Below are positions 3,707-63,177 of a DNA stretch of 64,000 nt, piece after piece. The stretch's first letter is position 1; every line of letters starts with the position of its first letter. The DNA is from Curtobacterium flaccumfaciens. GTDB taxonomy: Bacteria; Actinomycetota; Actinomycetes; Actinomycetales; Microbacteriaceae. The translations under genes were made by a program, and so were the position numbers. The notes under the pieces were generated by a model. The model was not told the origin of the DNA and made no database searches. It worked only from the letters and a program-made list of their open reading frames with translations. The stretch lies in NCBI GenBank assembly GCA_029689965.1, contig CP121450.1, positions 2,790,001-2,854,000 on the forward strand, given 5' to 3'.

Positions 3707-4282
3707 ATGACCACCCGCAGCCGCGCCCGGGCGATCACCCTCGCCGTGCTCACCGTCTCCACGTCGCTCGCGCTCGTGGCGTGCTCCGGCGGCGGCTCGG
3801 ACACCGCGACGCCGAGCGCGACCCCGGGACCGGTCGGCAAGCGCGTCACGCAGACCTGCGGTGAGCTCCTGCCCTCGGGGTCGCTCGACGTGTACGGCAC
3901 GTCGTTCGCGATCGACCGCTCCTACGAGCCGGAGAAGGGGTCGCCCGCCGCCCGGATCGCCGAGCAGCGCGGCCGTGTCTGCCGCTGGGAGGCGACCGAC
4001 GACGCCTCGACGACGATCACGCTGGCCGTCGCCGACCTGCCTGAGAAGTCGCTCACGAACCTCAAGGACGCGCTGTACGAGCGGGGCGGTTCCGTGCCCA
4101 CCTACCGGGTCGAGGGGTACTTCTCGCTCACGCACGGCGTCGGCCGGGCGGACGCGTTCGCCGACCCGTACTGGATCACCGCGTCCTCGACGCTCTTCAC
4201 CGAGCCCGGCGGCGCGCAACCGGTCATCGACGCGGTGCGGAACGTCGTGCGGCCGACCGCGTCGGCGACCCCCTCCCGCTGA
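3707..4282 (+). CDS. Secreted lipoprotein of unknown function
   Basis: 191 aa, intact. The ATG at 3707 begins a lipoprotein signal: basic MTTRSRARA, hydrophobic core and lipobox LVAC, so C25 or so should be lipidated. The mature part starts with a Ser/Thr/Gly/Pro linker and has two cysteines about 55 residues apart (QTCGELL and GRVCRWE), a possible disulfide. I do not recognise the family; it resembles the small actinobacterial DUF3558-like lipoproteins in size and layout only. It is divergent from argS with 59 bp between them. Confidence 0.7.
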
Positions 4283-19515: not shown

Positions 19516-20367
19516 ATGACCGCCCCCACGGACCGAACCGGCCCCACGGACCGAACCGGCCCCACGGACCGAACCGCAGCCTCCGGGCTCGAGGTGCGCG
19601 GCCTGACGGTCCGCATCGACCGCCGGACGATCCTCGACGACGTGACGTTCACCGTGCCTCCAGGCCGTCGCGTCGGCGTGATCGGCGCCTCCGGATCCGG
19701 GAAGTCCATGACCTCGCTCGCCCTGATGGGGTTGGAGCCGACCGGCGCCGACGTGACCGGCAGCATCCGGCTCGACGGCACCGAACTCGTCGGCCTGCCC
19801 GACCGCGAGCGCGCCCGGCACCGGGGCTCGGGCATCGCCATGGTCTTCCAGGAGCCGGGCACCGCCCTCGACCCGCTCCGTCGCGTCGGCGCCCAGATCG
19901 CCGAACCGCTGCGCCTGCACCGCGGCCTCGATCGACGTGGTGCGACCGCGGCCGCCGTCGACCTCGCGGTGTCCGTCGGCCTGCCCGACCCGGAGTCGCT
20001 GCTCCGGCAGTACCCGCACCAGCTGTCCGGCGGGCAGCGACAGCGGATCTGCATCGCGATGGCGCTGGCGGGCGAGCCGTCGTACGTCGTGGCGGACGAG
20101 CCGACGACCGCGCTCGACGTCACCACCGAGGCGCGCATCCTCGAGCTGTTCGAGCGGATGACCGCCGGAATGGTGTTCGTCACGCACGACCTGGCGGTGC
20201 TCGCTCGGATCGCCGACACCGCGGTGGTGCTCGACGCCGGGCGGGTCGTCGAACAGGGGCCGGTCGCGGGGTTGCTCGCCGCGCCGCAGCACCCGGCCAC
20301 CGCCGCGCTCGTCGACGCCGCCCGAGCCACCGCGCGCCGCGTCCGTCCGTCCGGAGGGACCGCATGA
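19516..20367 (+). CDS. Oligopeptide ABC transporter ATPase (DppD-like)
   Basis: 283 aa, intact. Walker A GASGSGKSM, signature LSGGQRQR, Walker B YVVADEPTTALD, switch THDLAVLA. The N-terminus carries a sixfold-residue repeat GPTDRT (two and a half copies) encoded by an 18-bp tandem DNA repeat, unusual for this family. It overlaps the second ATPase gene by 4 bp (ATGA). Confidence 0.93.
   Translation: MTAPTDRTGPTDRTGPTDRTAASGLEVRGLTVRIDRRTILDDVTFTVPPGRRVGVIGASGSGKSMTSLALMGLEPTGADVTGSIRLDGTELVGLPDRERARHRGSGIAMVFQEPGTALDPLRRVGAQIAEPLRLHRGLDRRGATAAAVDLAVSVGLPDPESLLRQYPHQLSGGQRQRICIAMALAGEPSYVVADEPTTALDVTTEARILELFERMTAGMVFVTHDLAVLARIADTAVVLDAGRVVEQGPVAGLLAAPQHPATAALVDAARATARRVRPSGGTA
19522..19575. 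repeat. 18-bp tandem repeat at the 5' end of the DppD-like gene
   Basis: Nearly three copies of CCCACGGACCGAACCGGC in frame, encoding TDRTGP units. The identical copies suggest recent slippage. Confidence 0.7.
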
Positions 20368-21155
20368 CCGCCGTCCTCGACGCAGCCGGGCTGCACCGCA
20401 CCTACCGGCTCCCCCGCCGCGGGCCGTTCGAGCCCGGCCCGGTGCGCACCGCCGTCGACGGCGTCGATCTGTCGGTCGCGCTCGGCGCGCGCCTCGGGAT
20501 CGTCGGCGAGTCCGGGTCCGGCAAGTCCACCCTGGTGCGGCTGCTGGCCGGCCTGGAGGCGCCTTCCGCCGGCGTCGTGACCGCCTCCGGTCGTCCGGTG
20601 GTCGCGTCCGGGTCCTCGGCCGGGATGCGCTGGTTCCGTCGCGAGACCGGGGTGGTGTTCCAGGACCCGTACGCCTCGCTCGACCCGCGGATGCGCGTCG
20701 GTTCGATCGTCGCCGAGCCGCTCCGGGCGCTCCGGATCGGGGACTCGGCGGCGGCGCGTGCGTCGCTCGTGCGGGACGTGCTGGAACGGGTCGACCTGCC
20801 GGCCGACGCCGTCGACCGGTACCCGCACGAGTTCTCCGGCGGCCAACGCCAGCGCATCGCGATCGCCCGGGCGGTCGTGCACACGCCGCGGATCCTGTTC
20901 GGCGACGAGCCGATGAGCGCCCTCGACGTGGTCGTTCGCGCCCGCGTGATCGACCTCCTCCGATCGCTCGCCGACGATCTCGGGCTGACGCTCGTGCTCG
21001 TCTCGCACGACATCGGCGTCGTGCAGCGGCTGTGCGACACCGTGGCGGTCATGGCGGCGGGGCGGATCGTCGAGCACGGCCCGGTGTCCCTGCTCGAGGC
21101 GCCGCAACACCCGGTGACGCGGGCCCTGGTGGAGGCGGCGCCGACGCTGCCGTAG
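20364..21155 (+). CDS. Oligopeptide ABC transporter ATPase (DppF-like)
   Basis: 263 aa, intact. Walker A GESGSGKSTL, signature FSGGQRQR, Walker B ILFGDEPMSALD, switch SHDIGVV. Opens with YRLPRRGPFEPGPVRTAVDGV as the second ATPase of dipeptide systems does. It ends the five-gene operon; a member of the TCGTACGA repeat family lies 45 bp beyond. Confidence 0.93.
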   Translation: MTAVLDAAGLHRTYRLPRRGPFEPGPVRTAVDGVDLSVALGARLGIVGESGSGKSTLVRLLAGLEAPSAGVVTASGRPVVASGSSAGMRWFRRETGVVFQDPYASLDPRMRVGSIVAEPLRALRIGDSAAARASLVRDVLERVDLPADAVDRYPHEFSGGQRQRIAIARAVVHTPRILFGDEPMSALDVVVRARVIDLLRSLADDLGLTLVLVSHDIGVVQRLCDTVAVMAAGRIVEHGPVSLLEAPQHPVTRALVEAAPTLP

Positions 21156-21198
21156 CGGGGGGCGGGGCGCGGGCGCGGTCCGCCGGTTCCGACCCGGA

Positions 21199-21236
21199 TC
21201 GACATGTCCGATGTCGTACGACGTCGGAGTTGTCGC
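21199..21236. repeat. TCGTACGA palindrome family, single copy A
   Basis: Imperfect palindrome centred at 21217/21218. The arms CGACA..TCCGA.GTCGT pair at about 15 of 18 positions. The same core and flanks occur in pairs at 31830-31944 and 61568-61684. It lies in the 203-bp space between the peptide importer and the DUF4832 gene. Confidence 0.65.
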
Positions 21237-21358
21237 ACTGCCTCGACACCATGCACCCCCGTGTGCGAGTCCTGTTCGACTGAGCGGGAGTCCTTGCCCC
21301 TGTGCGGGACCCTCGGGAGCATCGACGTGCATCGATCGCTTCTCGAAGGGGAGAACGC

Positions 21359-30147: not shown

Positions 30148-31798
30148 ATGTCCGAAACCACCACCGGCATCAGCCGCCGCACCCTGTTCTCCGGCGCCGC
30201 GTTCGGCCTCGTCGCCCTCGGCGCCGGAGGATCGCTCGCCGGGTGCTCCGGCGGCGGGACCGCCGCGACCATCTCCGACACGGTGGCCGCGCTCCCCACC
30301 TACGTCCCGATCACGAAGGGTCCGAAGCCCGACCTGCCGGGCAACGACAAGGTCCAGCCGGTCTACTACTCGTACCCGGAGGACAGCGAGCTCTTCCGCT
30401 CCGTGACCAGGGACGTGAAGGTCGGCGGCACCACCACCGGCTTCGTCGTCACCTACGCCGCACCGCCACCCGCGAACAACTCCTTCCTCGACTACATCGG
30501 CGACGTCACGGACACGCGGTACGACCTGACCTTCGTCCCCGGCGACTCGTTCGACACGAAGTTCGCCACGATGACCGCGGGCAACGACATCCCGAACATC
30601 GTCGAGTTCCTCACGTTCGCGATGCCGCCGCGGTTCCCGCAGCTGCTCGACGCGAAGTTCTCCGACCTGTCCGAGTACCTCTCCGGCGACGCCGTGAAGG
30701 AGTACCCGAACCTGGCGAACATCCCCACCGCATCGTGGCGGAGCGCGCGGATCAACGGCAAGATCTACGGCGTCCCGGAACACCGGCCGCCGTTCGGGTC
30801 CGTGATGATCTGCCGCCCGGACCTCATCGAGCAGTACACCGGTGCCGAACCGGCACCGAAGGACAAGGACGAGTTCTTCGAGCTGTGCAAGGCGGTCACC
30901 GACGCGAAGGCCGGCCGGTACGCGATCGCCGGCGGCGGCGGTTCGTCCGGCGTCGACTGGTCGTACGACTTCATCGGCGCCACCTTCGGCGTCCCGAACC
31001 AGTGGGCGAAGTCGGACGGGCAAGCTCGTCCACAAGAACGAGACCGAGGCCTGGCTCGAGACGCTGAGCTACATCAAGAAGCTTCTGGAACGCCGGCGTC
31101 TTCCACCCGGACACCCCGAGCCTGGAGAGCGCCAAGGCGAAGACCTACATCAACAACGGCACCGTGCTCATGCACCTCGACGGCATCTCCGCGCTGCTCG
31201 ACGTCACCATGCCGAAGGGGATCGTCACGGGCGGCATCGTGCCGTTCGGAGCGGACGGCGGCAAGGGCGCGAACTACCAGGGCACCTCGAGCTTCTCGTT
31301 CGCGGCGCTCAAGAAGACCACGCCGGAGCGCATCAAGGCCCAACTCCGGTTGATCGACTACCTGTCCGCGCCGTTCGGGTCGAAGGAGGCGTTCACCCTC
31401 ACCCACGGCAAGAAGAACGTGCACTACACGGGCAGCGGGCCGAACGCCGCACTCACGAGCGCCGGCGAGCAGATGATCAACGCCAGTGCGCTCTACCGCC
31501 TCGGAGCGGGGCCGCAGGTCCTCAACACCGCGGTACGCATCGACGAGCAGCTGCGCCAGTCGCACAAGTGGCAGGTCGCGACGCAGGACATGCTGCTCAC
31601 GAACCCCGTCGACGGGTACTACTCCCCGCGGCGTCGTCCACGCAGTCGGCGAGCCAGGCGTTCAACAGCGTCTGCAACGACTACGTCCTGGGGCGCACGA
31701 ACCTGGCGGCGGTCAAGTCGGGCGTGACGACGTGGACCGCGGCCGCGGGGAACACGATGCGGAAGGAGTACACCGAGGCGATGGAGAAGCAGGGCTGA
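30148..31798 (+). CDS. Carbohydrate ABC transporter substrate-binding lipoprotein (LplA-like), frame broken
   Basis: About 549 aa, solute-binding family 1. The signal has twin arginines (ISRRTLFSGAAFG) and a lipobox LAGC, so a Tat-exported lipoprotein. The body has VPGDSFDTKFATMTAGNDIP and GKIYGVPEHRPPFGSVM as in LplA/YtcQ. An extra G near 31020, an extra T at 31083-31084 (KKLWNAGVFHPD is restored when removed) and a missing base near 31629 break the frame. Third gene of the importer. Confidence 0.9.
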
Positions 31799-31829
31799 GG
31801 CGGCGCGGCGGGGCGCGGCGGCGGACTCA

Positions 31830-31944
31830 GTACGACAGATCCTTTGTCGTACGACGTCGGTCCCGTCGCCCGCGCGTGTGCAACAGTTGCGGCCGCCCGG
31901 TTGCGACAACACCGATGTCGTACGACCTCGACGATGTCGCACCA
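31830..31944. repeat. TCGTACGA palindrome family, pair B
   Basis: Two palindromes with centres at 31850/31851 and 31921/31922, 71 bp apart. The first has GTACGACA (31830-31837) facing TGTCGTAC (31845-31852). Between them is TGCAACAGTTGCG, and the second begins GGTTGCGACAACACCGA. The order, spacing and spacer match pair C at 61568-61684. It lies between convergent genes. Confidence 0.7.
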
Positions 31945-32016
31945 CAGCGCACCACACCGCAGCGCACCACACCACAGCGCACCACACCACACCACACCAC
32001 AGCGCACCGCACCGCA
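31945..32016. repeat. ACCAC/CAGCGCACCACAC low-complexity repeat
   Basis: About five slipped units of CAGCGCACCACAC with internal ACCAC runs, 72 nt, directly after the second palindrome of pair B and 24 bp before the amidase stop. Confidence 0.7.
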
Positions 32017-32039: not shown

Positions 32040-33479
32040 TCACCACACCGGCGGGTGCCTCCGCTGCCACCGCAACCGCCGCTCGAGCTGCGCGCCGATC
32101 GCGAGCAGCACGCGCTCCCCGCCCGGCCGCCCGATCAGCTGCACGCCCATCGGCAGGCCCGCTCCGTCCGGATGCCCCTCCGACGTGACGCCCACGGGTA
32201 GCGTGATCGCCGGCAGCCCCGCGACGTTCGCCATCGAGGTCCAGGGCGAGTAGGCGCACTGCCGGCGAAAGTCCTCCTCGGGGTCGTCCCCGTACCAGCC
32301 GAGGGGCCGCGGCGTCAGGGCGAGCGTCGGCGTGAGGACGGCGTCGAACCGGTCGAAGGTGCCGATCAGGGCGGCGGAGAACGTGTCGAGCGCGGTCATC
32401 GCGTCGAGCACCTGCGTCCCGGTGAGGGACTGCCCACGGGCCACCAGCCACGACACGAGCGGTGTCAGCTCGGCCAGGTCGATGCCGGGCACCATCGGGA
32501 GCCGTGCAGCGGAGCTCTCCCACGCCACCCGGAACGCGGCGGCGTACGGCGCGCGCGGCATCGCGACGTCCTCGACGCCGTGTCCCACCTCGCCGAGCAC
32601 CCGCACCGCGGTCGCCACGGCGGCCCGGGCAGCGGGATCGACCACCACGTCGACGGTGTCGTCCCACGGCGAGCCGTTCAGGAGTCCCACCACGAAGCGC
32701 CCCTCGCCACGGACGGCCGCCGCGGTGAACGGCCCGTCGCCGACCTCGGGGGTGACGAGCGCGTACGGGCGGGGCTCGGGCAGCCCCGTCGGCGACACGA
32801 GGGCGTCGAGCAGCATGCCGGCGTCGGCGACGGTCCGGGCGAGCGGCCCGGCGACGGACAGCCCACCGACCCCGGAGCGGCCGGGCATCGACGGCACGCG
32901 ACCACGGCTCGGCTTGAGCCCGACGAGGCCGGTGGCCGCCGCCGGGATGCGCACCGAGCCTCCGCCGTCGGACCCGACCGCCGCGGGGAGCAGTCCGGCG
33001 GCGACGGAGACCGCGGCACCGCTCGACGACCCGCCGGGCGCACGTGTGGTGTCGTACGGGTTCCGGGTGACACCGAGGCGGGTCTCGGACGACGACGACA
33101 TGCCGAACTCCGGGCCGGCCGTCTTCCCGAGGCTGATCGTGCCCGCCGCGTCGAGGGCTGCGACGAGCGGGTGGTCGGCCGTCGCGGGCCGCTCCGGCAG
33201 TGCGACGGTGCCGCTGCGCGTGGGCACCCCGGCACGGTCGTACAGGTCCTTGTCGGCGGACGGGAGGCCCCACAGCGGTCTCGACGTCGGCACCCGGTCG
33301 CCCAGGTGGTCGGCCCGGTCCTGCGCGGCCCCGGCCGTGACCGTCACGAACGCGCCGAGCTCCGGGTCGAGTCGCGCGATGCGGTCCAGGAAGTGGTCGG
33401 TCACCTCGCGTGCCGTGGACTCGCCGCGGCGGATCCAGTCCCAGAGTTCCTGCGCGGTGAGGTGGTGGAGTTCGAACAT
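32040..33479 (-). CDS. Amidase signature family enzyme
   Basis: 479 aa, intact, ATG at 33479. Ser-Ser-Lys catalytic set: Lys in LPSADKDLYD, the glycine/serine block APGGSSSGAAVSVAAG with the cis-Ser, and nucleophile Ser in SDGGGSVRIPAA. Members hydrolyse a wide range of amides; it is not in a GatCAB context, so it is probably not the tRNA amidotransferase subunit. Stands alone, convergent with the saccharide importer. Confidence 0.9.
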   Translation of the reverse strand: MFELHHLTAQELWDWIRRGESTAREVTDHFLDRIARLDPELGAFVTVTAGAAQDRADHLGDRVPTSRPLWGLPSADKDLYDRAGVPTRSGTVALPERPATADHPLVAALDAAGTISLGKTAGPEFGMSSSSETRLGVTRNPYDTTRAPGGSSSGAAVSVAAGLLPAAVGSDGGGSVRIPAAATGLVGLKPSRGRVPSMPGRSGVGGLSVAGPLARTVADAGMLLDALVSPTGLPEPRPYALVTPEVGDGPFTAAAVRGEGRFVVGLLNGSPWDDTVDVVVDPAARAAVATAVRVLGEVGHGVEDVAMPRAPYAAAFRVAWESSAARLPMVPGIDLAELTPLVSWLVARGQSLTGTQVLDAMTALDTFSAALIGTFDRFDAVLTPTLALTPRPLGWYGDDPEEDFRRQCAYSPWTSMANVAGLPAITLPVGVTSEGHPDGAGLPMGVQLIGRPGGERVLLAIGAQLERRLRWQRRHPPVW

Positions 33480-33597
33480 CGTGCCCGAGCCTATGCCGCC
33501 CCCATCGCGCACCGCGGCTTGCATCCTTCGGCGGAACCCCGCGATCGCCTCCGTTCGCCGGTCGTCCCGCACGCCCGCCGTTCCTAGCGTCGAGGAC

Positions 33598-34564
33598 ATG
33601 ACGATCACCACCGAAGACCGGCACACCGCCGGCACCGTCCCCGCAGACCGGACGGGGTGCGCGGGCTCGTCGCCCGGCATCCCCTCGTCTCGTTCGCCGC
33701 CCTCGCGCTCGGCCTGAGCTGGGCCGCCTGGGTCCCGTACATCCTGTCGCCGCACGGCCTCGGGGTCTGGGACCTGCACTTCCCGGAACTCCTCGGCACC
33801 GCGCAGTTCACCGGCGTCCTGCCCGGCGCGCTCCTCGGCCCGCTCGGCGGCGCGTTCGTCGTCACCGCCCTCGCCGACGGTCGTCCGGGGCTCCGTCGCT
33901 GGGTCGGCCGACTGTGGCGCTGGCGGGTGGCCTGGTACTGGTACGCCCTCGCCCTCGTGGGCGTCCCGGCCCTCATCGTGGTCTCCGGTCTGCCGTTCGC
34001 CGGCGGGCAGGTGCAGGCTCCGACCGCGCTCGCCCTGCTCGCCCTGGTGCCGGGGCTCGTCGTCCAGCTGTTCACGACCGGCCTGTCCGAGGAGCCTGGC
34101 TGGCGCGACTTCGCCCTGCCCCGGCTGCAGGAGCGCTTCGGGCCGCTCGGCGCCGTCGCCGTGCTCGGGCCGCTCTGGGCGCTGTGGCACATGCCGCTCT
34201 ACCTCAGTGACTGGGCGGCTGGCCGGACGCCCACTGGACGGAGCCGCTCGTCTTCGCCGTCTTCACGATCACGTTCAACGTGGTGATGACCTGGGTGTTC
34301 AACCGCACCGGGGAGAGCCTGCCGGTCGCCCTGCTGCTGCACGTCGGCGTGAACAACACCATCTCCACGCTCTGGGCCGACATGTACCCCGGGATGACCG
34401 CGGGCACGATGCTGCACGGGCTCGCGATCGTCTCCACGGTGGCGGCGGCCGTCCTGCTCGTGGCGACCCGGGGACGTCTGGGCCACCCCGGCACGCCACC
34501 CGGAACCGCGACCGCACCCGCCGACCTCGCCCGACTCGTAGGATCGAACGATGGCACCCGCTGA
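33598..34564 (+). CDS. CPBP intramembrane metalloprotease, frame broken
   Basis: About 322 aa, multi-pass membrane. ATG at 33598; a missing G near 33655 restores TGVRGLVARHPLVSF. CPBP motifs: LSEEPGWRDFALP (EExxxR), LWALWHMPLY (FxxxH type) and LLLHVGVNN (HxxxB). A second shift lies near 34222. Such proteases act in bacteriocin immunity, protein processing or signalling. It overlaps the histidine kinase start by 14 bp, suggesting a shared operon. Confidence 0.87.
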
Positions 34565-51936: not shown

Positions 51937-52461
51937 TCAGCCTCTCGCGGTCGGGCGGAGACCGAGCCGCTCGACGACCTCGGCGCTCTCCTCCTCCGGC
52001 GTTCGGTCCGCCGCGACCGTGATGTGCACCTCGTCGTCCTGCGGCGGCTCCAGCGTGGCGAGCTGCGACGCCAGCAACGACGTCGGCATGAAGTGTCCCG
52101 AGCGCTGGGACATCCGGGTCTCGATCAGGTCCCCGGTACCCGCCACGTGCACGAACACGACCCCGGGCGCGCGGAGCACGTCGCGGTAGGAGCGCTTCAG
52201 CGCCGAGCAGGTCACGACGCCCGGCGTTCCGGCGTCCAGGTGCGATCGGATCCACGTCGCGACGACGTCGAGCCACGGCCAGCGGTCCTCGTCCGTCAGG
52301 GGCGTGCCGGCGTGCATCTTGTCGACGTTCGCCTGCGGGTGCATCGCGTCGCCCTCTGCGAAGTCCCACCCGAGCTGCTCGGCGACGCTCGCGGCGACCG
52401 TCGACTTGCCCGAACCGGAGACGCCCATCACCACGAGGACGCGTGCATCGATGCCGCTCAA
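51937..52461 (-). CDS. gntK: Gluconokinase
   Basis: 174 aa, intact. Phosphorylates gluconate to 6-phosphogluconate. Walker A VMGVSGSGKST, then GDAMHPQANVDKMHAGTPLTDEDRWPWLD and CSALKRSYRDVLR, all typical of GntK. TTG start at 52461 overlaps the gntP stop (TTGA), coupling the two. Regulated with gntP by the divergent GntR. Confidence 0.93.
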   Translation of the reverse strand: MSGIDARVLVVMGVSGSGKSTVAASVAEQLGWDFAEGDAMHPQANVDKMHAGTPLTDEDRWPWLDVVATWIRSHLDAGTPGVVTCSALKRSYRDVLRAPGVVFVHVAGTGDLIETRMSQRSGHFMPTSLLASQLATLEPPQDDEVHITVAADRTPEEESAEVVERLGLRPTARG

Positions 52462-54002
52462 TGGATGAACACCCCCGCGAGCAGGACGCCGAGCAGGCCG
52501 AACACCGAGATGAGGCACTCGAGCATCGTCCACGTCTTGAAGGTCTGCCCGACGGTGGTGTTGAGGTACCCCTTCACGAGCCAGAACCCGGCGTCGTTCA
52601 CGTGCGACAGGAACACCGAGCCGGCACCGATCGCGAGCACGAGCAGCGAGGTCATCGGCGAGGACAGGTCGTGTGCGATGGGCGCCATGATGCCCGCGGC
52701 GGTCACCGTGGCGACCGTCGCGGACCCGGTCGCCACGCGCACGAGCGCCGAGACGACCCACGCCACGAGCAGCACGGAGATCCCGGAGTCCTTCACGGCG
52801 TCGGCGATCACCCCGCCGATGCCGGTGTCGATGAGGACCTGCTTGAACCCACCGCCGGCTCCGACGATGAGGAGCACGCCGGCGACCGGCGGCAGCGCGC
52901 TCTCGAGCGACTTCGACACGGCGGACCGGTCCATGCCGCCGCCGAGGGCGAAGAACACCATGGCGTAGACCGCGGCGATCCCGATCGCGATCATCGGCGA
53001 CCCGAGGAAGTCGAGCAGGCTGACCCACGAGCCGGACGCGTTCGGCGCCGTCGCCTCGCGGATCGCCTGGGCGAGCATGAGCACGACCGGCAGCAGGATG
53101 CCGATCAGGGCGACCGCGAAGGACGGGCTGCGCGGTTCGCTGATGACGCGGGTGAAGTCGCTCTTGCCGTGGGGCAGGGAGGCGGTGTCCTGCGTGGCGG
53201 GACCGCGCCGTGCCTCCCGTCCTTCGTGCGCCGGGTCCTGCGAACCGGAGCCGCCGCCACCACGCGACCCGAAGAGGTCCGGCGCGGGGATGTCGACCCA
53301 GCGTGCCGCGAAGCGGGCGAAGACCGGGCCGGACAGCACGATGACCGGGATGGCGAGCACGATGCCGAAGGCGAGGGTCGTGCCGAGGTTCGCGCCGACC
53401 GTCGAGATCGCGACGAGGGGACCGGGGTGGGGCGGGACGAAGGCGTGCATCGTCGAGAGGCCGACGAGGGCGGGCACGGCGATCCTCATGATCGGGACGG
53501 AGCTGCGCTTGGCCACCAGGACGATGATCGGGATGAGCAGGACGAGGCCGACCTCGAAGAACATCGGCAGGCCGATCAGCGCGCCGATGAGGGCCATCGT
53601 CCACGGCAGCGCCGCCTTCGACGACCTCCGCACGAGGGTGTCCACGACGCGGTCCGCAGCACCGGAGTCGACGAGCATCTTGCCGAACATCGACCCGAGG
53701 CCGACGAGGATACCGACGCTCGTCATGGTCGCGCCGAACCCGTTCCCGAAGCTCGTGACCGCCTTGTCCGGGGCGAGGCCGGCACCGATGCCGACGCCCA
53801 GCGCGCCGATCGTCAACGCGATGAAGGGGTGCACCTTGAGCCAGGTGATGAGCGCGATGATGACGACGATGCCGATAACCGCCGCGATGACGAGCTGTGC
53901 GACGGGGCCGGACGGGTCGACGGTGTCGGTTCCGCCGCCCTCCGCTGCGAGGACGGTGGCCGCGTGGGCCGTGGCCACGTGGGCCGGGAGCGCGTGAGGC
54001 AT
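52458..54002 (-). CDS. gntP: Gluconate permease
   Basis: 514 aa, intact, GntP family with about 12 helices (ATMTSVGILVGLGSMFGKML, AFVPPHPGPLVAISTVGANLGT, SGSATVATVTAAGIMAPI, SHVNDAGFWLVKGY). A poorly conserved cytoplasmic loop near residues 240-280 (GSRGGGGSGSQDP...ATQDTASLPHGK) includes an in-frame piece of the GGAGGC repeat family. ATG at 54002. Confidence 0.93.
   Translation of the reverse strand: MPHALPAHVATAHAATVLAAEGGGTDTVDPSGPVAQLVIAAVIGIVVIIALITWLKVHPFIALTIGALGVGIGAGLAPDKAVTSFGNGFGATMTSVGILVGLGSMFGKMLVDSGAADRVVDTLVRRSSKAALPWTMALIGALIGLPMFFEVGLVLLIPIIVLVAKRSSVPIMRIAVPALVGLSTMHAFVPPHPGPLVAISTVGANLGTTLAFGIVLAIPVIVLSGPVFARFAARWVDIPAPDLFGSRGGGGSGSQDPAHEGREARRGPATQDTASLPHGKSDFTRVISEPRSPSFAVALIGILLPVVLMLAQAIREATAPNASGSWVSLLDFLGSPMIAIGIAAVYAMVFFALGGGMDRSAVSKSLESALPPVAGVLLIVGAGGGFKQVLIDTGIGGVIADAVKDSGISVLLVAWVVSALVRVATGSATVATVTAAGIMAPIAHDLSSPMTSLLVLAIGAGSVFLSHVNDAGFWLVKGYLNTTVGQTFKTWTMLECLISVFGLLGVLLAGVFIH
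53193..53222. repeat. GGAGGC-family element inside gntP
   Basis: 30 nt matching 25 of 30 bases of the arm at 30077-30106. It is read in frame in gntP as part of GREARRGPATQ, in a loop between helices. Confidence 0.6.
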
Positions 54003-54090
54003 CGGTGCCCCTTCCTGGAGCCGCTGCCGCGCGGCTCCGTCGCCTTCGTGTCGAGTGCGGTCTGGCGCACGAGGTGCCGACCGTCAATAA

Positions 54091-54104
54091 TCTGATTAAT
54101 CAGA
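54091..54104. promoter_or_regulatory. Palindromic operator of the gnt genes
   Basis: Perfect 14-bp palindrome TCTGATTAATCAGA, strikingly AT-rich in this genome, 89 bp before gntP and 105 bp before gntR. Its form fits a GntR-family operator controlling both directions. Confidence 0.65.
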
Positions 54105-54208
54105 CTATACGACGATCCACCGCGCGGCACCCGCCCTCGCTCGCAGTCTGCCGATTCGATGGACACCGCGTCACACCCGCCACGTGACGCGTACTGCATG
54201 GAGGAACG

Positions 54209-54906
54209 ATGCCGACCGCACGCGGACTGCACGCACAGGTGCTCGACACGCTCGGACGGCGCATCGTCGACGGTGCGCTCGCCCCCGGCACGGTCGTGCG
54301 CCCGACGCGGTCGCGGACGAGTTCGGTGTCTCGCGATCGGTCGTCCGGGAGGCCTTGCGCGTCCTGCAGTCGCTCGGACTCGTCGAGCCCCGGCAGCGCG
54401 TCGGGACCCAGGTGCTCGGCATCGGGTCGTGGGAGCTCCTCGCACCGACGGTCATCCGGTGGCGCGGCGATTCGCCGTCGTACTTCGTCCAGCAGCGGGA
54501 GCTCCTCGAGCTGCGGCTCGGCGTCGAACCCGTCGCTGCGACGCTGGCCGCCGGGACGCCCGGAGCGGCAGCGGTGCTCGACGCGGCGTCGGACATGCTC
54601 GGTGCCTGCGCGCGGGAGGACAGCCGCGCCTACCTCGAGGCCGACGTGCGGTTCCACCGCGCCCTGCTCGCGGCCTCCGGCAACGCGGTGTTCACGCACT
54701 TCGCCGGCACCGTCGAGGCGTTGCTCCGCACGCGCACCTCCGAGTCGCGGGACACGATCACGCGGTGGACCAGGGACGCCGCCGCACGGCACGTCGCGGT
54801 CGGGCGGGCGCTCGTCGCCGGCGACGCCGCGGCCGCCTCGGCGGCGGCCGGCGAGCTGGTGCGCGTGACGCGCGACGAGTTCATCGCCGAGGCGCCGTCC
54901 GCCTGA
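54209..54906 (+). CDS. gntR: FadR/GntR-family regulator of gluconate genes, frame broken
   Basis: About 232 aa. ATG at 54209 behind GGAGGAACG. GntR winged helix with AVADEFGVSRSVVREALRVLQSLGLVEPRQRVGT; a missing C near 54306 hides the start of this helix. The C-terminal FCD domain has REDSRAYLEADVRFHRALLAASGNAVF, with metal-binding Asp and His. Divergent from gntP. Confidence 0.9.
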
Positions 54907-54952
54907 CGGCGGCGCGGCCCGCGGCGGCGCACGCCCGCGCGCGCCCCGCGCC

Positions 54953-55249
54953 CGTTCCTTCCCATGACGCGGGACCTGGGATGCCGAATCGCGCGTAGGA
55001 GACATGAAGAACCAGTCCCCTACGCGCGAAACCACCACCTAGGCGCGAAACGCCCGCCTACGAGCGGCTTCGTGGGGTCGACGCGACCCGGCGACGGCCT
55101 GGAGGCACGGTGCGGGCCCGCCACGCGCCTCCAGTGCGGTACCCGCGCACGTTCCTTCCCATCACACGCGACCTGGGATGCCGAATCGCGCGTAGGAGAC
55201 ATGAAGAAACAGTCTCCTACGCGCGAAACGACCACCTACGCGCGGAACG
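54953..55249. repeat. Two 100-bp direct repeats with a 14-bp stem
   Basis: Copies at 54953-55052 and 55150-55249, about 90 percent identical, 197 bp apart. Each contains GGATGCCGAATCGCGCGTAGG and a stem CGCGCGTAGGAGAC / GTCTCCTACGCGCG with an 11-nt loop (perfect at 55187-55225). This is part of the 385-bp space without a gene between convergent gntR and the GNAT gene. Confidence 0.7.
55096..55137. repeat. GGAGGC-family hairpin repeat, copy 5
   Basis: CTGGAGGCACGGTGCGGG / CCCGCCACGCGCCTCCAG, between the two 100-bp direct repeats. Confidence 0.65.
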
Positions 55250-55290
55250 GCTCCCCACGCGCGGAACGGCTCCCTACGCGCGGAAGCGCC
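55217..55290. repeat. Degenerate 19-bp tandem repeat
   Basis: About four units of CTACGCGCGGAACGGCTCC type, ending at the stop of the GNAT gene. Confidence 0.6.
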
Positions 55291-55291
55291 C

Positions 55292-55894
55292 CTACCGGCG
55301 CGCGAAGAGGCGCGGGCCGCGCAGGCGCAGGCGCATCGTCACCGTGCCGAGCCACCGGTCGTACTTGTAGCCGACCTTGCCCATCCGGCCGACCTCCTCG
55401 AAGCCGAGCCGCTCGTGCAGCCGGATCGACGCCTCGGCCTGACGGTCGGCGATGACCGCGACGACCTCGCGCACGCTGGCGGCGCGGCACTCGTCGAGCA
55501 GCGCTTCCATGAGGGCCCGCCCGAGGCCCTTCCCACCGGACGCTGCGCCGAGGTAGATCGAGTCCTCGACGACGCGGTTCGACCGGTCCCGAGGGTTCCA
55601 CGCGTCCACCAGGGCGTACCCGAGGATCTGCCCGGACGGGTTCACGGCGACCAGGAACGGGAGCCGCCGCTTCCGGATGTCGTCGTACCGGTGCTTCCAG
55701 GCGGCGAAGGTGAACGCCGACGCGTCGAAGGTCACCGAGGAGTTGCGGACGTAGTGCGTGTGGATCTCGCGGACGTCGGGCAGGTCCGTGGGCTCCGCGG
55801 CACGGATCGTGTACGTGAACGCGGCCTCGGGCGGAACCGGGGCGCGCAGGTGTCGCGGCAGGACCCGCCGCCGCTGGTATTCCTCCTCGAGCAC
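55292..55894 (-). CDS. GNAT acetyltransferase (phosphinothricin-acetyltransferase-like)
   Basis: 200 aa, intact, GTG at 55894. [28 protein letters not shown] opens the fold; the acetyl-CoA loop reads [14 protein letters not shown], later [23 protein letters not shown]-like members acetylate amino-acid analogues. It appears joined to ung in one open frame only because of a missing base in ung. Confidence 0.85.
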
Positions 55895-55904
55895 GCGTCC
55901 GAGC

Positions 55905-56608
55905 CTAGGCCGCGGCCGGGTCGCGGGTCCCGACGGAAGGGCCCAGTCGACGGGTGCCGCTCCCTGCGCGGCGAGCAACTCGTTCACCTGCGAGAACGGT
56001 CGACTGCCGAAGAACCCGCGCGACGCGCTGAGGGGCGACGGATGCGCCGACGCCACCACCGGGGTGTCACCGAGGAGCGGGCGGACGGAGCCCGCCTGTG
56101 CGCCCCAGAGCACCGCGACGAGGGGCTTCCCACGGCCGACGAGTGCTCGGACGGCCTGGTCGGTGACGGCTTCCCACCCCTTGCCCCGGTGACTCCCGGC
56201 ATCGCCCGCGTGCACGGTCAGCACCCGGTTGAGCAGCAGCACGCCCTGCGCGGACCAGGCTCGGAGGTCTCCGTGCACGGGCGGCGTCAGACCGAGGTCG
56301 GACTCCAGCTCGCGGTAGATGTTCGCCAGGCTGCGCGGAACCGGTCGCACGTGCGGGTCGACGGCGAACGACAGCCCGATCGGGTGTCCCGGTGTCGGGT
56401 ACGGGTCCTGCCCGATCACGAGCACCTTCACGTCGTCGAACGGGTCAGCGAACGCCCGGAGGACGTTGCTCCCCGCGGGCAGGTAGCGCCGACCGGCGGC
56501 GACCTCGTCGCGGAGCCAGTCGCCCATCCGGTGGACGTCGTCCTCGACCGGGCCGAGCGCTCGCGCCCAGCCCGGGTCGACGAGGTCCGCGAGGGGGCGG
56601 GGCTGCAC
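55905..56608 (-). CDS. ung: Uracil-DNA glycosylase, frame broken at the end
   Basis: About 234 aa; removes uracil from DNA. GTG at 56608 five nt after the peptidase stop. Water-activating loop [16 protein letters not shown] and Leu-loop [11 protein letters not shown]. Restoring one G near 55932 gives the end [14 protein letters not shown] and a TAG stop at 55905; without it the frame runs into the GNAT gene. Confidence 0.92.
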
Positions 56609-56612
56609 GGCT

Positions 56613-57335
56613 CTACGCCCCCATGGTCGCGACGGAGACCGACTCGTCACCGGCGACGACCCGCCAGACGCTGCCGGTGCCGCGGACCTCGAGCGCGCCC
56701 TCGCCGACGACGAGCGTGGTGTCCTCGTCGATGGCGATGCCCGCGGTGACGAACTCGGCCTCGGCGCTCGCGACGAGCCGGGCGAGCGTGCCGGCCTGGA
56801 CGGCGTGCACGTCGATGGTGAGGTCGACGAGCCCCAGCCCTTCGCGGAGCTCGACCTCGTCCAACCCCTCGGACGCGTCCTCGGGGCAGACCTCGACGCC
56901 GCCGATCCGCCACCCGCCGACGAGCGCCCGGTCGGACGCGATCATCGCCCCGGCCGAGTACCCGAGGTACGGCAGCCCGTCGGACACGAGCAGCCGGACC
57001 TGGTCGACGAGCGGAGCGACGGCGTCGAGGTAGTGCGGCGTGACGCCACCACCGACCACGAGGGCGTCGACGTCGCTGAGGACCGTGGTGCTGAAGGCCT
57101 CGCCCGGCGCGATCTCGGTGACGAGGACCTCGGCCTGGCGGGCGCCGCCGAGGACCTCGGCGATGTCGGCCGTGGACGGAGAGACGGGACCGGCGGACGC
57201 GCCGGCGACCGAGAGCAGTCCGATGCGCGGCACGGTCCGGCCGACGGCGGCCGACCGTGCGGTGGCCTCGGCGAGGAACGGCGCGGCGGCGTCCGAACCG
57301 GCGAACGGCCCGCCGCCGACGAGGTGGATGCTCAC
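56613..57335 (-). CDS. Peptidase S51 (peptidase E/cyanophycinase-like) protein
   Basis: 240 aa, intact, GTG at 57335 overlapping the upstream stop. Class I glutamine-amidotransferase-like fold: [25 protein letters not shown] and the nucleophile Ser in YLGYSAGAM. Family members cleave Asp-X dipeptides or cyanophycin. Operon with a phosphoribosyltransferase and ung. Confidence 0.88.
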
Positions 57336-57865
57336 GACTCGGCCGTCACCGGGGCGAGGGCACTCCACGGGAAGGTGATCCACCCGTCGACACGTCGCCA
57401 CACGTGGTCGGGCTCGAGCACCGTGCCGGGCTTGGAGTACAGGCAGGCGCTGCGGACGTCGGCGCCGGCGTCCCGGATGATGTCGACCACGAGGCGCAGC
57501 GTGCGGCCGGAGTCGGACACGTCGTCGACCACGAGCACGCGCTTGCCGGCGAGGCTCGGGGCGTCGAGGGCCGGTGCCAGCACGACCGGCTCGTCGAGGC
57601 GCTGCTCGACGTCGGTGTAGAACTCGACGTTGATCGAGCCGCACTCCTTGGTGCCGAGCGCGTAGGCGACGGCTCCGGCGATGATGAGACCACCGCGGGC
57701 CACCGCGACGACGACCTCGGGCTCGAAGCCGGAGGACAGGACGTCCTTGGCGAGCAGGCGTGCAGCGTCACCGAACTCGAGCCACCCGAGCACCTCCGGC
57801 CTGCTCGTCACGGTCACGGTCGAGGGAGCCTGGGCGGGTGCCCCGGAGTCGCTGCTGATCGGCAT
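57332..57865 (-). CDS. Phosphoribosyltransferase
   Basis: 177 aa, intact, ATG at 57865. Type I PRTase PRPP loop VLVVDDVSDSGRTL; ARGGLIIAGAVAYALG is the PPi loop region. Likely a purine or xanthine-type phosphoribosyltransferase of actinobacteria; exact base unknown. Confidence 0.9.
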   Translation of the reverse strand: MPISSDSGAPAQAPSTVTVTSRPEVLGWLEFGDAARLLAKDVLSSGFEPEVVVAVARGGLIIAGAVAYALGTKECGSINVEFYTDVEQRLDEPVVLAPALDAPSLAGKRVLVVDDVSDSGRTLRLVVDIIRDAGADVRSACLYSKPGTVLEPDHVWRRVDGWITFPWSALAPVTAES

Positions 57866-57931
57866 CCGACCACGGTAGCGGCACGGACCCCGCGCCCGCG
57901 ACCCGCATGTGCCGCCCGGGCGCGTGCGGAC

Positions 57932-57981
57932 CCGCCCACGTGCGGACGGCCCACGTGCGGACGGCGCACGTGCGGACGGCC
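57932..57981. repeat. 15-bp tandem repeat
   Basis: Three copies of CCCACGTGCGGACGG type, each with a CACGTG core, between the SDR gene end and the phosphoribosyltransferase start. Confidence 0.7.
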
Positions 57982-57986
57982 CGGCG

Positions 57987-58757
57987 CTACGGCCGGGCGT
58001 GAGCCGACCGCGCGCGAGCCTGTGCTGCGCGGACTGCGCCACGGGCCGGATCGTCACGAGGTCGAGGTTCACGTGCGCCGGCAGCTCGACCGCGTGCACG
58101 ATCGCCTCGGCGACGTCCTCGGCCACGAGCGGCTCCGGCACGTCGTCGTACACCGCCGCGGCCTTCTCGGCGTCGCCCCGGAACCGGGTCAGCGCGAACT
58201 CGTCGGTCTTCACCAGGCCGGGGGCGATCTCGACGACCGGATCGGCTCGCCGTTCAGCTCGAGCCGGAGCGCCGCGACCAGGGCGTGCTCGGCGAACTTC
58301 GCGGCGTTGTACCCGCCGCCGTTCTCGTAGGCCACGTGTCCCGCCGTGCTCGTCACGGTGACGATGTCCGCGCTCCCCGCGGACAGGGCACGACGACGCA
58401 GGTGCGGGAGGAGCGCGGCGACGACACGCTTCGTGCCGATCACGTTCACCTCGAACATCGCGCGCCAGTCGTCCACGTCGGACTCCTCGACGCTCGCCGA
58501 GCCGAAGGCACCGCCGGCGTTGTTCACGAGCACGTCCGCTCCCCGAGCTCCTCGACCCGGGCGGCGAGCGCCTCGACGTCGGTCGGGTCGGTGATGTCCG
58601 CGACGAGCACGTCCGTCCCCGTCGAGCCGGCGAGCGCCGAGAGCTTCGACTCCCGCCGGGCGACGGCGAGGACCTCCCAGCCGCGGTCACGGAACAGCCG
58701 GACGGTGGCCGCCCCGATGCCCGAGCTCGCTCCGGTGACGACTGCGCGACGTGCCAT
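57987..58757 (-). CDS. Short-chain dehydrogenase/reductase, frame broken
   Basis: About 257 aa, ATG at 58757 behind GGAGGAAG. Cofactor loop VVTGASSGIGAATV, NNAGGAFG, catalytic YNAAK in GGGYNAAKFAEHAL (Tyr and Lys), and VVEIAPGLVKTDEFA. Shifts near 58540 and 58240. The stop given (TAG at 57987) needs one more base near 58005; otherwise the frame runs on towards the next gene. Confidence 0.85.
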
Positions 58758-58839
58758 GTGCTTCCTCCAGTGCTGGGACCCAGATGTCCTGACCACGGTA
58801 CCGATCGAGCAAGGTCACGATCAGGTAACGTGACGGGCG

Positions 58840-59927
58840 ATGACGACGGATGCCGCCCCTCCCGCGCCCTCGGCGCCCGCCACACAGCTCGAACCGGGTC
58901 GTGCGAAGCGTCGTATCCCGATGTGGGACACGGCGCGGTTCCTCGCGGTCACGCTCGTGGTGATCGGGCACGCGATCCAGCGGCAGACGACGGCGAGCGA
59001 GCACGCCCTGGCGCTGTACACGTTCATCTACGCGTTCCACATGCCGGCGTTCGGCGTGATCAGCGGGTACTTCTCGTCGGCGGACACCCCGACGACGAAG
59101 CGGATGCGCCGGACGATCACCGACATCGTGGTGCCGTACATCATCATGCAGACGATCTGGACCGTCGTGCAGGCACTGGTCGAGGGCGGAAGAAGTTCAA
59201 CCCGACCCAGCCGACCTGGACGCTCTGGTTCCTGCTCGCCCTCGGCATCTTCCGGCTGATCCTGCCGTACCTGGCGCAGCTGCGGTGGCCGCTGCTCTGG
59301 GCGGTGGTGTTCAGCATCGGCGTGGGCTACTTCGACAACGTCGACTCGACGCTGTCCCTGTCGCGGGCGATCAGCCTGCTCCCGTTCTTCCTGGTCGGCT
59401 GGCAGGTGAAGCAGTGGGGGTTGTTCGACCGCTGGTACGAGGCACCACGGCGCACGGTGGTCCGGATCCGCATCGCCGCCGCGGCGGTCTTCGCGGCATG
59501 GGCGGTCGCGTGCGCCATCTGGATCCCGCAGTTCAAGGAGTTCGACCTGCACCACTGGTTCTTCTACGACGACTCGTACTCGGGTCTCGGCGAGGACGCC
59601 TGGTGGGCCGGTGCCGTCCGCTTCGGGTTGATGCTGCTCGCGGCGCTGCTGACGGCGTGCTTCCTGCTCCTCGTGCCCCGTCGGAACATCTGGATCACGC
59701 AGTTCGGAGCCGCGACGATGTACGTCTACCTGCTCCACACGTTCCTGCTCTACCCGATCCGCGAGTCCGGGATCCTGGCCGGGCCGCACTCGGCGTGGCC
59801 GTTCGTGCTGCTCATGGTCGCGATCGCCTGTGCGGTGAGCCTGTTCCTCGCACAGCCCTTCGTGCGCCGCGGGATGCGCTGGCTGCTCGAACCGAACGTG
59901 CGCTGGCTGTTCCGCCGCGACGCGTGA
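58840..59927 (+). CDS. Acyltransferase family 3 membrane protein, frame broken
   Basis: About 362 aa, some ten helices. PMWDTARFLAVTLVVIGHAIQ opens with the family Asp/Arg and catalytic-type His; IYAFHMPAFGVISGYF and PRRNIWITQFGAATMYVYLLH follow. A missing G near 59192 restores VEGGKKFNPTQPTWTLWFL. Such enzymes add acetyl groups to sugars or glycans at the membrane. Divergent from the SDR gene. Confidence 0.88.
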
Positions 59928-59942
59928 CATCTCCGCGCAAGC

Positions 59943-60017
59943 CCGCAGTGTGCGAGGTGCCGCGCACTGTGCGAGGGCGCTCGCGTCCCACAGAGCGCGG
60001 AGCCTCGCACACTGCGG
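59943..60017. repeat. 15-bp perfect inverted repeat
   Basis: CCGCAGTGTGCGAGG (59943-59957) and its exact complement (60003-60017), 45 nt apart, with a further related CGCACTGTGCGAGG inside. It follows the acyltransferase gene by 15 bp and may form a large hairpin. Confidence 0.7.
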
Positions 60018-60020
60018 CGG

Positions 60021-60143
60021 CGGCCGGGAGGCACGGTGCGGCTCCGGCGCGCGCGTTACGTCCCGAGGCGGGTGCGCTGGTACCGGCGCGGCCACCTGCG
60101 TACCGTGGCGTGCGACGCGAAGCTGCGCCGTGCCTCCCGGCCG
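60021..60143. repeat. GGAGGC-family element with a long loop, copy 6
   Basis: Arms CGGCCGGGAGGCACGGTGCGG (from 60021) and the complement at 60123-60143 pair at about 20 of 23 positions but enclose about 77 nt, unlike the tight hairpins elsewhere. It fills most of the space before metY. Confidence 0.6.
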
Positions 60144-60189
60144 AGCGCAAGGCGACCCGACGACCAGCGCACCGGACAGGAGCACCAAG

Positions 60190-61520
60190 ATGAGCACGAA
60201 CGACGCAGCCCAGTGGCGGTTCGAGACCACGCAGGTCCACGCCGGCGCGCAGCCCGACCCGGCGACGGGGGCGCGCGCGACGCCGATCTACAAGACGACC
60301 TCGTACGTGTTCGAGAACTCGGACCACGCGCGCGACCTGTTCGCCCTGGCGCAGCCGGGCAACGTCTACTCGCGCATCATGAACCCGACGAACGACGTCG
60401 TCGAGCAGCGCATCGCCGCGCTCGAGGGCGGTTCCGGCGCGCTCCTGGTGTCGAGCGGCCAGGCCGCGGAGACCTACGCCGTGCTCAACATCGCCGGCGC
60501 CGGTGACCACATCGTGTCCTCGTCGTCGATCTACGGCGGCACCTACAACCTGTTCAAGTACACGCTGGCGAAGCTCGGCATCGAGACCACCTTCGTCGAG
60601 GACCAGGACGACCTCGACGAGTGGCGTCGTGCGGTGCGTCCGAACACGAAGCTGTTCTTCGCGGAGACGATCGGCAACCCGAAGATCAACGTCCTCGACA
60701 TCGCCGAGGTCAGCGCCGTCGCGCACGAGGCCGGCGTGCCGCTCATCGTCGACAACACGATCGCGACGCCGTACCTCATCCGGCCGTTCGAGCACGGGCG
60801 GACGTCGTCGTGCACTCCGCGACGAAGTTCCTCGGCGGGCACGGGACGGTCATCGGCGGCGTCATCGTCGACGGTGGGACGTTCGCGTGGTCGCAGCACC
60901 CGGACAGGTTCCCGGAGTTCAACACGCCCGACCCCTCGTACCACGGGGCCGTCTTCGCCGAGGCCGTGGGCAACGAGCTCGCCTACATCGTGAAGGCCCG
61001 GGTGCAGCTGCTGCGCGACCTCGGGGCGTCGAACTCGGCGGACACCGCGTTCGCACTCCTGCAGGGCATCGAGACGCTGTCGCTCCGCATCGAACGGCAC
61101 GTGCAGAACGCCCAGGAGATCGCGGAGTGGCTCGATCGCCACCCGGACGTGGCGACGGTCGCGTACGCCGGGCTGCCGACGTCGCCGTGGTACGCGGCGG
61201 CGAACAAGTACGCGCCGAAGGGCGTGGGCGCCGTGCTGTCGTTCGAGCTCAAGGGCGGCGTGCCCGCGGGCAAGGCGTTCGTGGACAACCTGCGGCTCTT
61301 CTCGCACCTGGCCAACATCGGCGACGTGCGCTCCCTGGTCATCCACCCGGCGTCGACCACGCACTCGCAGCTCACGCCCGAGCAGCAGCTCACGACCGGT
61401 GTCACGCCGGGCCTGGTGCGGCTGTCGGTCGGGATCGAGAACGTCGAGGACCTGAAGGCGGACCTCGAGGCCGGTCTCGCGGCGGCCCGTGCGGTCGCGC
61501 AGGAGGGCCTGCGCGCGTAG
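60190..61520 (+). CDS. metY: O-acetylhomoserine sulfhydrylase, frame broken
   Basis: About 443 aa PLP enzyme making homocysteine from O-acetylhomoserine and sulfide. ATG at 60190 behind AGGAG. NVYSRIMNPTNDVVEQRIAALEGGSGAL, IYGGTYNLF, VDNTIATPYLIRP and the PLP Lys in VHSATKFLGGHGT. One base is missing near 60805. Followed by metX, which makes its substrate. Confidence 0.95.
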
Positions 61521-61556
61521 GAGCACTGCTCCGCGCACAGGAGCACTGCTCCGCGC
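61520..61556. repeat. 17-bp direct repeat at the metY stop
   Basis: GGAGCACTGCTCCGCGC at 61520-61536 and again at 61540-61556; each is itself near-palindromic (GGAGCA/TGCTCC). Confidence 0.7.
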
Positions 61557-61567
61557 GTGCCGACCCC

Positions 61568-61684
61568 GAACGACAAACCCGACGTCGTACGACGTCGGGT
61601 TTGTCGTTCCTGCGCGCATGCAACTGTTGTGCGAGCGCGGTTGCGACAAGACCGCTGTCGTACGACGTCGACGTTGTCCCACCA
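61568..61684. repeat. TCGTACGA palindrome family, pair C
   Basis: First member 61568-61609 is a perfect 42-bp palindrome with centre GTCGT/ACGAC. Second member, centre 61661/61662, begins GGTTGCGACAAGACCG. The centres are 73 bp apart. The spacer has TGCAACTGTTGTG, matching pair B. Lies between metY and metX. Confidence 0.8.
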
Positions 61685-61763
61685 CGTCGCTCCGCACACA
61701 CCCCGCGCGTGCACCCGACCCGACCACGTGCCGTGGACCCGGCGACGCGCCGGACGTGACGTA

Positions 61764-61803
61764 ACACGGCGGTCCCGCACCGCGCCTCCCGGCAGACTGG
61801 ACC
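61764..61803. repeat. GGAGGC-family half element, copy 7
   Basis: ACGGCGGTCCCGCACCGCGCCTCCCGG, matching the right half of the family with only a short left arm, ending just before the metX start. Confidence 0.5.
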
Positions 61804-61805
61804 CG

Positions 61806-63002: not shown

Positions 63003-63177
63003 CGGGCCGACGCTTTTCGTCGCAGTTGCAACAACAATCACGGAACCATCCGGATCGGCTCGCGCGCCGAACACCCCCAACGGGTGTCGCGCGTGGAATG
63101 ATGGCGTGGTGCCCGGGCTGACCGAGGCTCGGTTTCCCGCTCACCACAACTCACCACACGTCATCACCAGGACATCG

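Follow-up and report, generated by a model that had tools for sequence, protein, structure and literature searches.

Genomes of Curtobacterium carry a family of interspersed palindromes, here called T1. We read it, at a probability of about 0.6, as a Curtobacterium-specific REP/BIME-like family whose frame is recognized in duplex DNA, which spreads by a non-RAYT route, gains and loses units, and has in some cases been exapted as hairpins. 'REP/BIME-like' refers here to appearance and location and not to membership, because we found no Y1_Tnp domain, no transposase among the genes read beside or between elements, and no readable target duplication. The palindromic unit (P) has the frame CGAC-N9-GTCG-NN-CGAC-N9-GTCG, with TA as its central core.

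The window, a stretch of 64,000 nucleotides of the C. flaccumfaciens chromosome, contains seven copies of TCGTACGA against 0.96 expected, a number reached in none of 100 shuffles. Two of these copies, at 31847–31854 and 31918–31925 with centres 71 bp apart, belong to pair B, which also contains GGTTGCGACAACACCG at 31899–31914; another two, at 61585–61592 and 61658–61665 with centres 73 bp apart, belong to pair C, which contains GGTTGCGACAAGACCG at 61639–61654. As the original prediction proposed, both pairs follow one plan, in which a dyad P is followed 71 or 73 bp on by a second dyad P, with a GCAACnGTTG dyad midway. The element is slightly longer than the extent of about 115 bp given there, at about 31823–31949 and 61561–61689. 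A third intergenic member of the family is a lone P at 21190–21245. The copy of TCGTACGA at 30961 lies within the reading frame of a solute-binding protein, and neither it nor the copy at 4861 is among the matches of a covariance search of the window. That search, with a model built from 31 palindromes of the same genome, found five palindromes at 50.6 to 72.4 bits (better strand), the next match scoring 22.5 bits. The features of the window are as follows.

20364–21155, plus strand: gene for an ABC-transporter ATPase, upstream of the single-P element (PF00005, E 1.7e-30).
21190–21245, no strand: single-P T1 element 3' of the ABC-transporter ATPase gene (66.8 bits; RNA fold z −3.49; orthologous gene end in relatives).
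30148–31798, plus strand: extracellular solute-binding protein gene that ends before pair B and whose frame is broken in the assembly (first piece PF01547, second piece without family match).
31823–31949, no strand: pair B, a two-palindrome T1 element with convergent genes on either side (sequence, covariance matches 31823–31878 and 31894–31949, context).
31823–31878, no strand: first palindrome (P1) of pair B, centre between 31850 and 31851 (50.6 bits).
31879–31890, no strand: central spacer dyad of pair B, TGCAACAGTTGC (sequence; spacer consensus of 28 own 73-bp pairs).
31894–31949, no strand: second palindrome (P2) of pair B, centre between 31921 and 31922 (64 bits).
32040–33842, minus strand: amidase gene converging on pair B, start left open (PF01425, E 5.7e-84).
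60807–61520, plus strand: metY-like gene of the O-acetylhomoserine sulfhydrylase family, 3' part, upstream of pair C and with a broken frame in the assembly (PF01053, E 5.8e-66 on 60621–61517; NCBIfam below curated cut-offs with only the piece as query).
61561–61689, no strand: pair C, a T1 element of two palindromes, flanked by a metY-like and a metX-like gene that both lie on the plus strand (sequence, covariance, context).
61561–61616, no strand: P1 of pair C, containing a perfect 42-bp palindrome at 61568–61609 (72.4 bits; 21-nt arms 100% complementary; RNA fold z −7.28).
61620–61629, no strand: central spacer dyad of pair C, GCAACTGTTG (sequence).
61634–61689, no strand: P2 of pair C, with imperfect arms (59.6 bits; RNA fold z −0.10).
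61957–62733, plus strand: metX-like reading frame (homoserine O-acetyltransferase family) downstream of pair C, the gene continuing in another frame at 62637–63002 (PF00561; NCBIfam MetX models below cut-offs with only the piece as query).

The solute-binding protein gene (30148–31798) and the metY-like gene (59950–61520) are both split by frame changes, perhaps through sequencing errors in the assembly, for which a genome completeness of 65.51% is given. Just upstream of metX, at about 61745–61805, lies a GACGTAACACGGCGG-bearing stretch that by eye recurs in many Curtobacterium loci and is a possible leader element; Frigoribacterium has, also by eye, a GTAACA-bearing hairpin at the corresponding position.

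Copies of the palindrome occur throughout the C. flaccumfaciens genome, which is 3.84 Mb in a single contig. With up to two mismatches allowed, a 16-letter core pattern has 77 matches on one strand and 83 on the other, its reversed control having 0 and 2, and a covariance search that scored 150 of 17,993 first-look candidates returned 152 matches, both strands counted. Scanning 35 genome stretches and the window (350,535 bases in total) with a weight matrix gave 81 P matches at 43 loci, a lower bound in that the stretches were picked from the pattern and covariance matches; palindromes scoring below 20 were left out. One of the 81 (L111, score 28.5) overlaps the palindrome next to it, at a distance of 19 bp, and probably should not be counted separately, and the set lacks one L084 partner that has 15 of the 16 frame letters. 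The 43 loci are spread along the chromosome, so that the copies are neither restricted to the window nor parts of one duplicated segment, either of which would have told against the original prediction.

Both the frame and the spacing of the units are regular. All 16 frame letters are present in 71 of the 81 P, the best background position having 12 of 16, and the rigid frame letters contrast with wide variation at the positions interleaved between them. This constancy is partly built into detection, which went from a seed pattern to a weight matrix, yet it did admit copies that have 12 or 13 of the frame letters. Among 33 neighbour spacings (frame with at most one mismatch), 27 are 73 bp, two are 71 bp, two are 72 bp, and one each is 74 and 130 bp; two loci hold four-unit arrays. 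Inspection of the positions 71–74 bp outward from the element ends (n = 86) revealed one unlisted partner, with 15 of 16 frame letters. The consensus of the 28 C. flaccumfaciens pairs at 73 bp runs from an outer end GCCGACnCGG through P, a spacer with CGCGnnnGCAACnGTTGCnnnCGCG and a second P to an outer end CCGnGTCGGC; in the spacer and the outer ends most letters have majorities of 60–90%. The inverted outer ends are not present at every element, and both can be read in about half of 11 singles.

The two palindromes of a pair resemble each other directly, a result that fits duplication and deletion of units. Within the C. flaccumfaciens pairs the likeness of the left arms was reached in 0 of 2,000 shuffles and that of the right arms has p = 0.026; for pairs of other species the count is 0 of 2,000 for both arms, and for pairs of the sister family T2, described below, the values are p = 0.001 and 0 of 2,000. 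Duplicate sequences were left out of the spacing, consensus, likeness and compensation counts.

The elements lie between genes and favour gene 3' ends. At none of the 43 loci does the element share more than 15 bp with a predicted coding segment. Their flanking genes are convergent at 19 loci, tandem at 22 and divergent at 2, compared with 28, 102 and 41 for other intergenic spaces of 60–600 bp in the same stretches (Fisher tests, convergent excess p = 0.0003, divergent deficit p = 0.003); the gene calls come from a codon-usage script of our own, applied to an assembly in which frames are broken, and for the background spaces a slightly different filter, for higher-scoring genes, was used. At 18 of the 22 tandem loci the element is closer to the 3' end of the upstream gene (p = 0.004; median distances 49.5 versus 159 bp).

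Several local features accompany the elements. Short tandem repeats occur at or near element edges in 27 of 77 cases and in 39 of 179 control intergenic pieces (Fisher p = 0.03; for example at 31950–32013, and at L090, L093, L094, L108 and L115), and may arise by replication slippage at the palindromes. A second dispersed hairpin, GGAGGCnCGG...CCGnGCCTCC, has 17 pattern matches in the 350,535 bases and lies within 220 bp of 9 of the 43 elements (sites include 22957 in the window, L106, L108 and, in the related genome G017, stretches L266 and L269); it has the appearance of an ordinary hairpin at a gene end. Of the two divergent loci, L103 carries a degenerate palindrome near 3754 and is neighboured by a fusion gene encoding helix-turn-helix and EPSP/MurA-like parts and by a gene with an FlbD domain. 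We considered an autoregulated binder encoded beside the two divergent loci, namely this HTH/EPSP-synthase-like fusion by the degenerate palindrome, and rejected it as too weak.

A sister family, T2, has the core AT, a 71-bp period and a spacer dyad of about ATGCRCRCGCAnCSGGTGCGYGYGCAT (16 pairs). It sits at the same gene ends as T1 in related species, and mixed arrays exist. Exact T1 frames occur in 51 of 66 Curtobacterium genomes (0–86 each) and exact T2 frames in 43 (0–28 each); some genomes, such as G001 and G040, have no exact frame of either family, and a shorter core pattern is present in 63 of the 66. In a broader sample, T1 frames were found in 8 of 10 Curtobacterium genomes and in 5 of 388 other Microbacteriaceae genomes, at one or two sites each. 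An order-wide sample, in which the C. flaccumfaciens genome was the only Curtobacterium, had frames with any WW core in that genome and in 3 of 296 others, one site each. T1 is specific to Curtobacterium, with only isolated matches outside the genus. One perfect frame palindrome with different inner letters occurs in another Microbacteriaceae genus (G198:C1:2419259–2419294) and could be a chance match or a distant third family. No match was found in viral contigs, searched with one exact pattern, or in plasmid and phage records, searched with pair C.

Comparison with relatives shows that corresponding sites vary in whether they hold an element, in the number of its units and in its family. At the 12 C. 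flaccumfaciens loci for which both flanks were found in G017 (12 of the 43; the G017 stretches compared did not contain both flanks of the other 31, and in many cases did not include the matching region at all), flank identity is about 84–98%, and G017 has T1 at six, two of which also carry T2 palindromes, only T2 at three, and neither family at three. The last group supplies the empty sites for which the original prediction suggested a search in sister strains. Two of them retain a separate hairpin with GGAGGC/GCCTCC arms that is kept in both genomes. The junctions at all three are too diverged for a target-site duplication to be read, so that insertion, rather than loss in G017, is our inference. 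At the pair B locus G017 has one unit fewer, a single palindrome whose left part equals P1 and whose remainder equals P2 except for one letter that matches neither; judged from its letters it is a one-unit recombinant but for that position. At the same locus a pair is present in G061, whereas the intergenic space of G028 is short and holds no element.

The 3' side of the metY-like gene carries T1 or T2 in 13 of 21 loci (L119–L139, two cut short; at most three mismatches), and several species with no element there have unrelated inverted repeats by eye. Among the 30 loci scoring best for each gene in the 66 genomes, a frame match of at least 14 of 16 letters is present 3' of the ABC-transporter gene in 21 and 3' of the amidase gene in 22, many of these being one element seen from both genes. 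The 9 ABC-gene and 8 amidase-gene loci with no such match sit badly with our main reading.

Whether the palindromes are read as duplex DNA or as hairpins can be addressed through compensating changes between their arms. In an alignment of 31 palindromes, 70.8% of cells show pairing between the arms, compared with 71.5% when columns are shuffled. A test on seven variable positions, with the families kept apart, one mismatch allowed and 2,000 shuffles, gave no compensation in five of six sets of paired palindromes (P1 and P2, respectively: C. flaccumfaciens, p = 0.75 and 0.75; other species, p = 0.40 and a weak 0.02; T2, p = 0.58 and 0.45). A looser count, with two mismatches allowed and T1 and T2 interchangeable, had shown pair compensation in other species but was confounded and is superseded by the family-separated test; under the two-mismatch T2 consensus, 2 of 23 'T2' pairs in fact belong to T1 with a 71-bp spacing, pair B of the window being one of the two. 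Single palindromes, by contrast, compensate in all three sets (C. flaccumfaciens, n = 13, p = 0.0005; other species, n = 26, and T2, n = 22, each 0 of 2,000 shuffles). Two other counts agree with the contrast between pairs and singles. The behaviour of the singles is RNA- or cruciform-like, is not predicted by duplex reading and counts against it.

A structured RNA, an alternative in the original prediction, is as a general reading not supported by the counts for the 31 palindromes and for the pairs. At the gathering score, Rfam matches only a tRNA in the whole window and none of the elements, and the fold z-scores, which for pair B are −0.97 (P1) and −2.88, also speak against a general RNA element. 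For singles, and for the palindrome that comes first after metY, an RNA reading may be correct. A long hairpin joining P1 to P2 around the spacer dyad was rejected: in C. flaccumfaciens the outer and inner arms pair less than shuffled ones, and no set passes 0.05 with families kept apart. The looser, family-mixing count had given p = 0.0055 for the outer arms of T1 in other species and, for T2, p = 0.013 for the inner arms and p = 0.004 for the outer flanks.

We infer that the frame is read in duplex DNA and that singles, like the palindromes at certain gene ends, face hairpin formation as an extra demand. The reader would be a putative dimeric protein that binds duplex DNA, given the constancy of the frame amid variable interleaved letters and the independent variation of the two arms in paired palindromes. 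Copies would reach new gene ends through a mobilizing activity other than RAYT, and the number of resident units would change, in either direction, when similar P cores recombine or replication slips between them. At some loci (for example behind metY), and in many singles, the palindrome would now be a better hairpin and may act as a termination or 3'-end hairpin of the mRNA. The original prediction of a small mobile or BIME-like unit agrees with the dispersed copies, pairs with fixed spacers, arrays, 3'-end location and presence or absence between relatives; movement itself was not observed.

A tentative extension, to which we give roughly one chance in four, would make T1 (TA, 73 bp) and T2 (AT, 71 bp) parts of a palindrome-spreading system in its own right, with the common frame CGAC-N9-GTCG-WW-CGAC-N9-GTCG but different inner letters and spacer dyads, in which each family is read and moved as duplex by its own version of the putative dimeric protein, as a non-HUH counterpart of RAYT/REP.

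It is unlikely, in our estimate, that the elements are primarily dispersed bidirectional transcription terminators or hairpins stabilizing mRNA 3' ends, with P kept for an RNA hairpin behind genes. The 3'-end bias and convergent excess would suit such a role, as would the distance of 41–68 bp from gene end to nearest P centre at 23 of 60 gene ends, the compensation in singles and the other inverted repeats behind metY in several species without the element. The first palindrome behind metY pairs at 18–21 of 21 positions in seven loci (L122, L123, L125, L126, L128, L130 and L133), at 17–19 of 21 in the T2 cases L120, L121 and L131, and fully in pair C of the window, but at only 11, 16 and 13 of 21 in L119, L129 and L132. 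A terminator scan of 52000–64000 predicted none at pair C, where no T-run follows the hairpin, and P2 of pair C folds no better than its shuffles, with P1 of pair B also scoring poorly. The absence of compensation in most sets of paired palindromes and the retention of a separate GGAGGC/GCCTCC hairpin at two empty G017 sites also argue against this explanation, and termination needs neither a conserved spacer dyad nor a 73-bp period.

We regard it as rather improbable that the palindromes, selected by the host and not mobile at present, serve to bind an architectural or regulatory protein of the chromosome. Such sites would account for a frame that is constant across species at the same gene ends, as behind the ABC-transporter gene, and the P centres would be separated by about seven helical turns. 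They would be harder to reconcile with the range of exact T1 frames between genomes, with genomes that have no exact frame of either family, and with the empty sites and family replacement, and the rarity of divergent genes at the loci argues against a transcription regulator.

True RAYT-mobilized REP/REPIN elements are largely refuted and very improbable: the palindromes, pairs, arrays and genomic location are REP-like as PMC3733652 describes REPs, but the RAYT-type domain Y1_Tnp (PF01797), whose gene the original prediction suggested looking for, is found in 0 of 66 Curtobacterium genomes, including that of C. flaccumfaciens (positive control, 5 of 14 known genomes), the consensus has no GTAG head, and no transposase was recognized among those genes that were read beside or between elements. 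Palindrome-flanked genes were also considered as a parent element and rejected, two cases in C. flaccumfaciens and five regions of G008, G062 and G019 containing no transposase by eye.

Our preferred reading, a duplex-read and REP/BIME-like family, leaves a genus with up to 86 T1 and up to 28 T2 exact-frame copies per genome, no RAYT domain in 66 genomes and fast turnover between close relatives. The spread of palindromes without RAYT thereby becomes a testable question, in a genus that can be cultured and for which many genomes exist, and with its rigid frame P offers a clean bait for a binding protein.

Among known systems, mycobacterial interspersed repetitive units are actinobacterial intergenic tandem repeats of tens of base pairs with variable copy number. 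By this description T1 resembles them in being actinobacterial, intergenic and variable in copy number; they are not known to be dyad-built. MITEs are short, non-coding elements with terminal inverted repeats, a target-site duplication and ends in common with an autonomous transposon. T1 shares with them its shortness, lack of coding capacity, presence or absence between relatives and, in the 28-pair consensus, inverted outer ends, but differs in that its internal units are palindromic and variable in number. No parent element was seen among the genes read beside or between elements. The strong hairpin of intrinsic terminators is present in some copies only. The prediction that no described family has this core agrees with the Rfam result and with a literature search of partial coverage, most subscription journals lying outside it, in which we recognized no report of the T1 repeat and searches on the core letters led only to other organisms and topics.

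T1 is like the CGTC-tagged REPs described in PMC3733652, a source whose main text lacks the word Actinobacteria, in that these repeats are reported without a dedicated transposase and lie at 3' ends. Those REPs have an 8–9-bp stem, a 4–5-nt loop, one unpaired tag and a CCA-like tail, according to the same source, whereas the T1 dyad is symmetric to its centre. The likeness to REP/BIME elements of the GTAG superfamily, as PMC3733652 and PMC2817692 present them, extends to short palindromes in pairs and arrays, intergenic location near 3' ends between convergent or same-direction genes, lineage specificity and hybrid arrays of two families. GTAG-type REPs are explained by RAYT transposases (PMC2817692), whereas no RAYT domain was found in the 66 Curtobacterium genomes and T1 has no GTAG (or GTGG) head. 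T1 further differs in its near-symmetric arms of about 18–21 bp around an unlooped core, in its period of 73 or 71 bp and in the second dyad that lies halfway between the palindromes. REP palindromes in BIMEs are reported to retain complementary changes (PMC2817692). Single T1 and T2 palindromes compensate too, whereas paired ones keep their frame letters while, in five of six tests, their arms vary without compensation.
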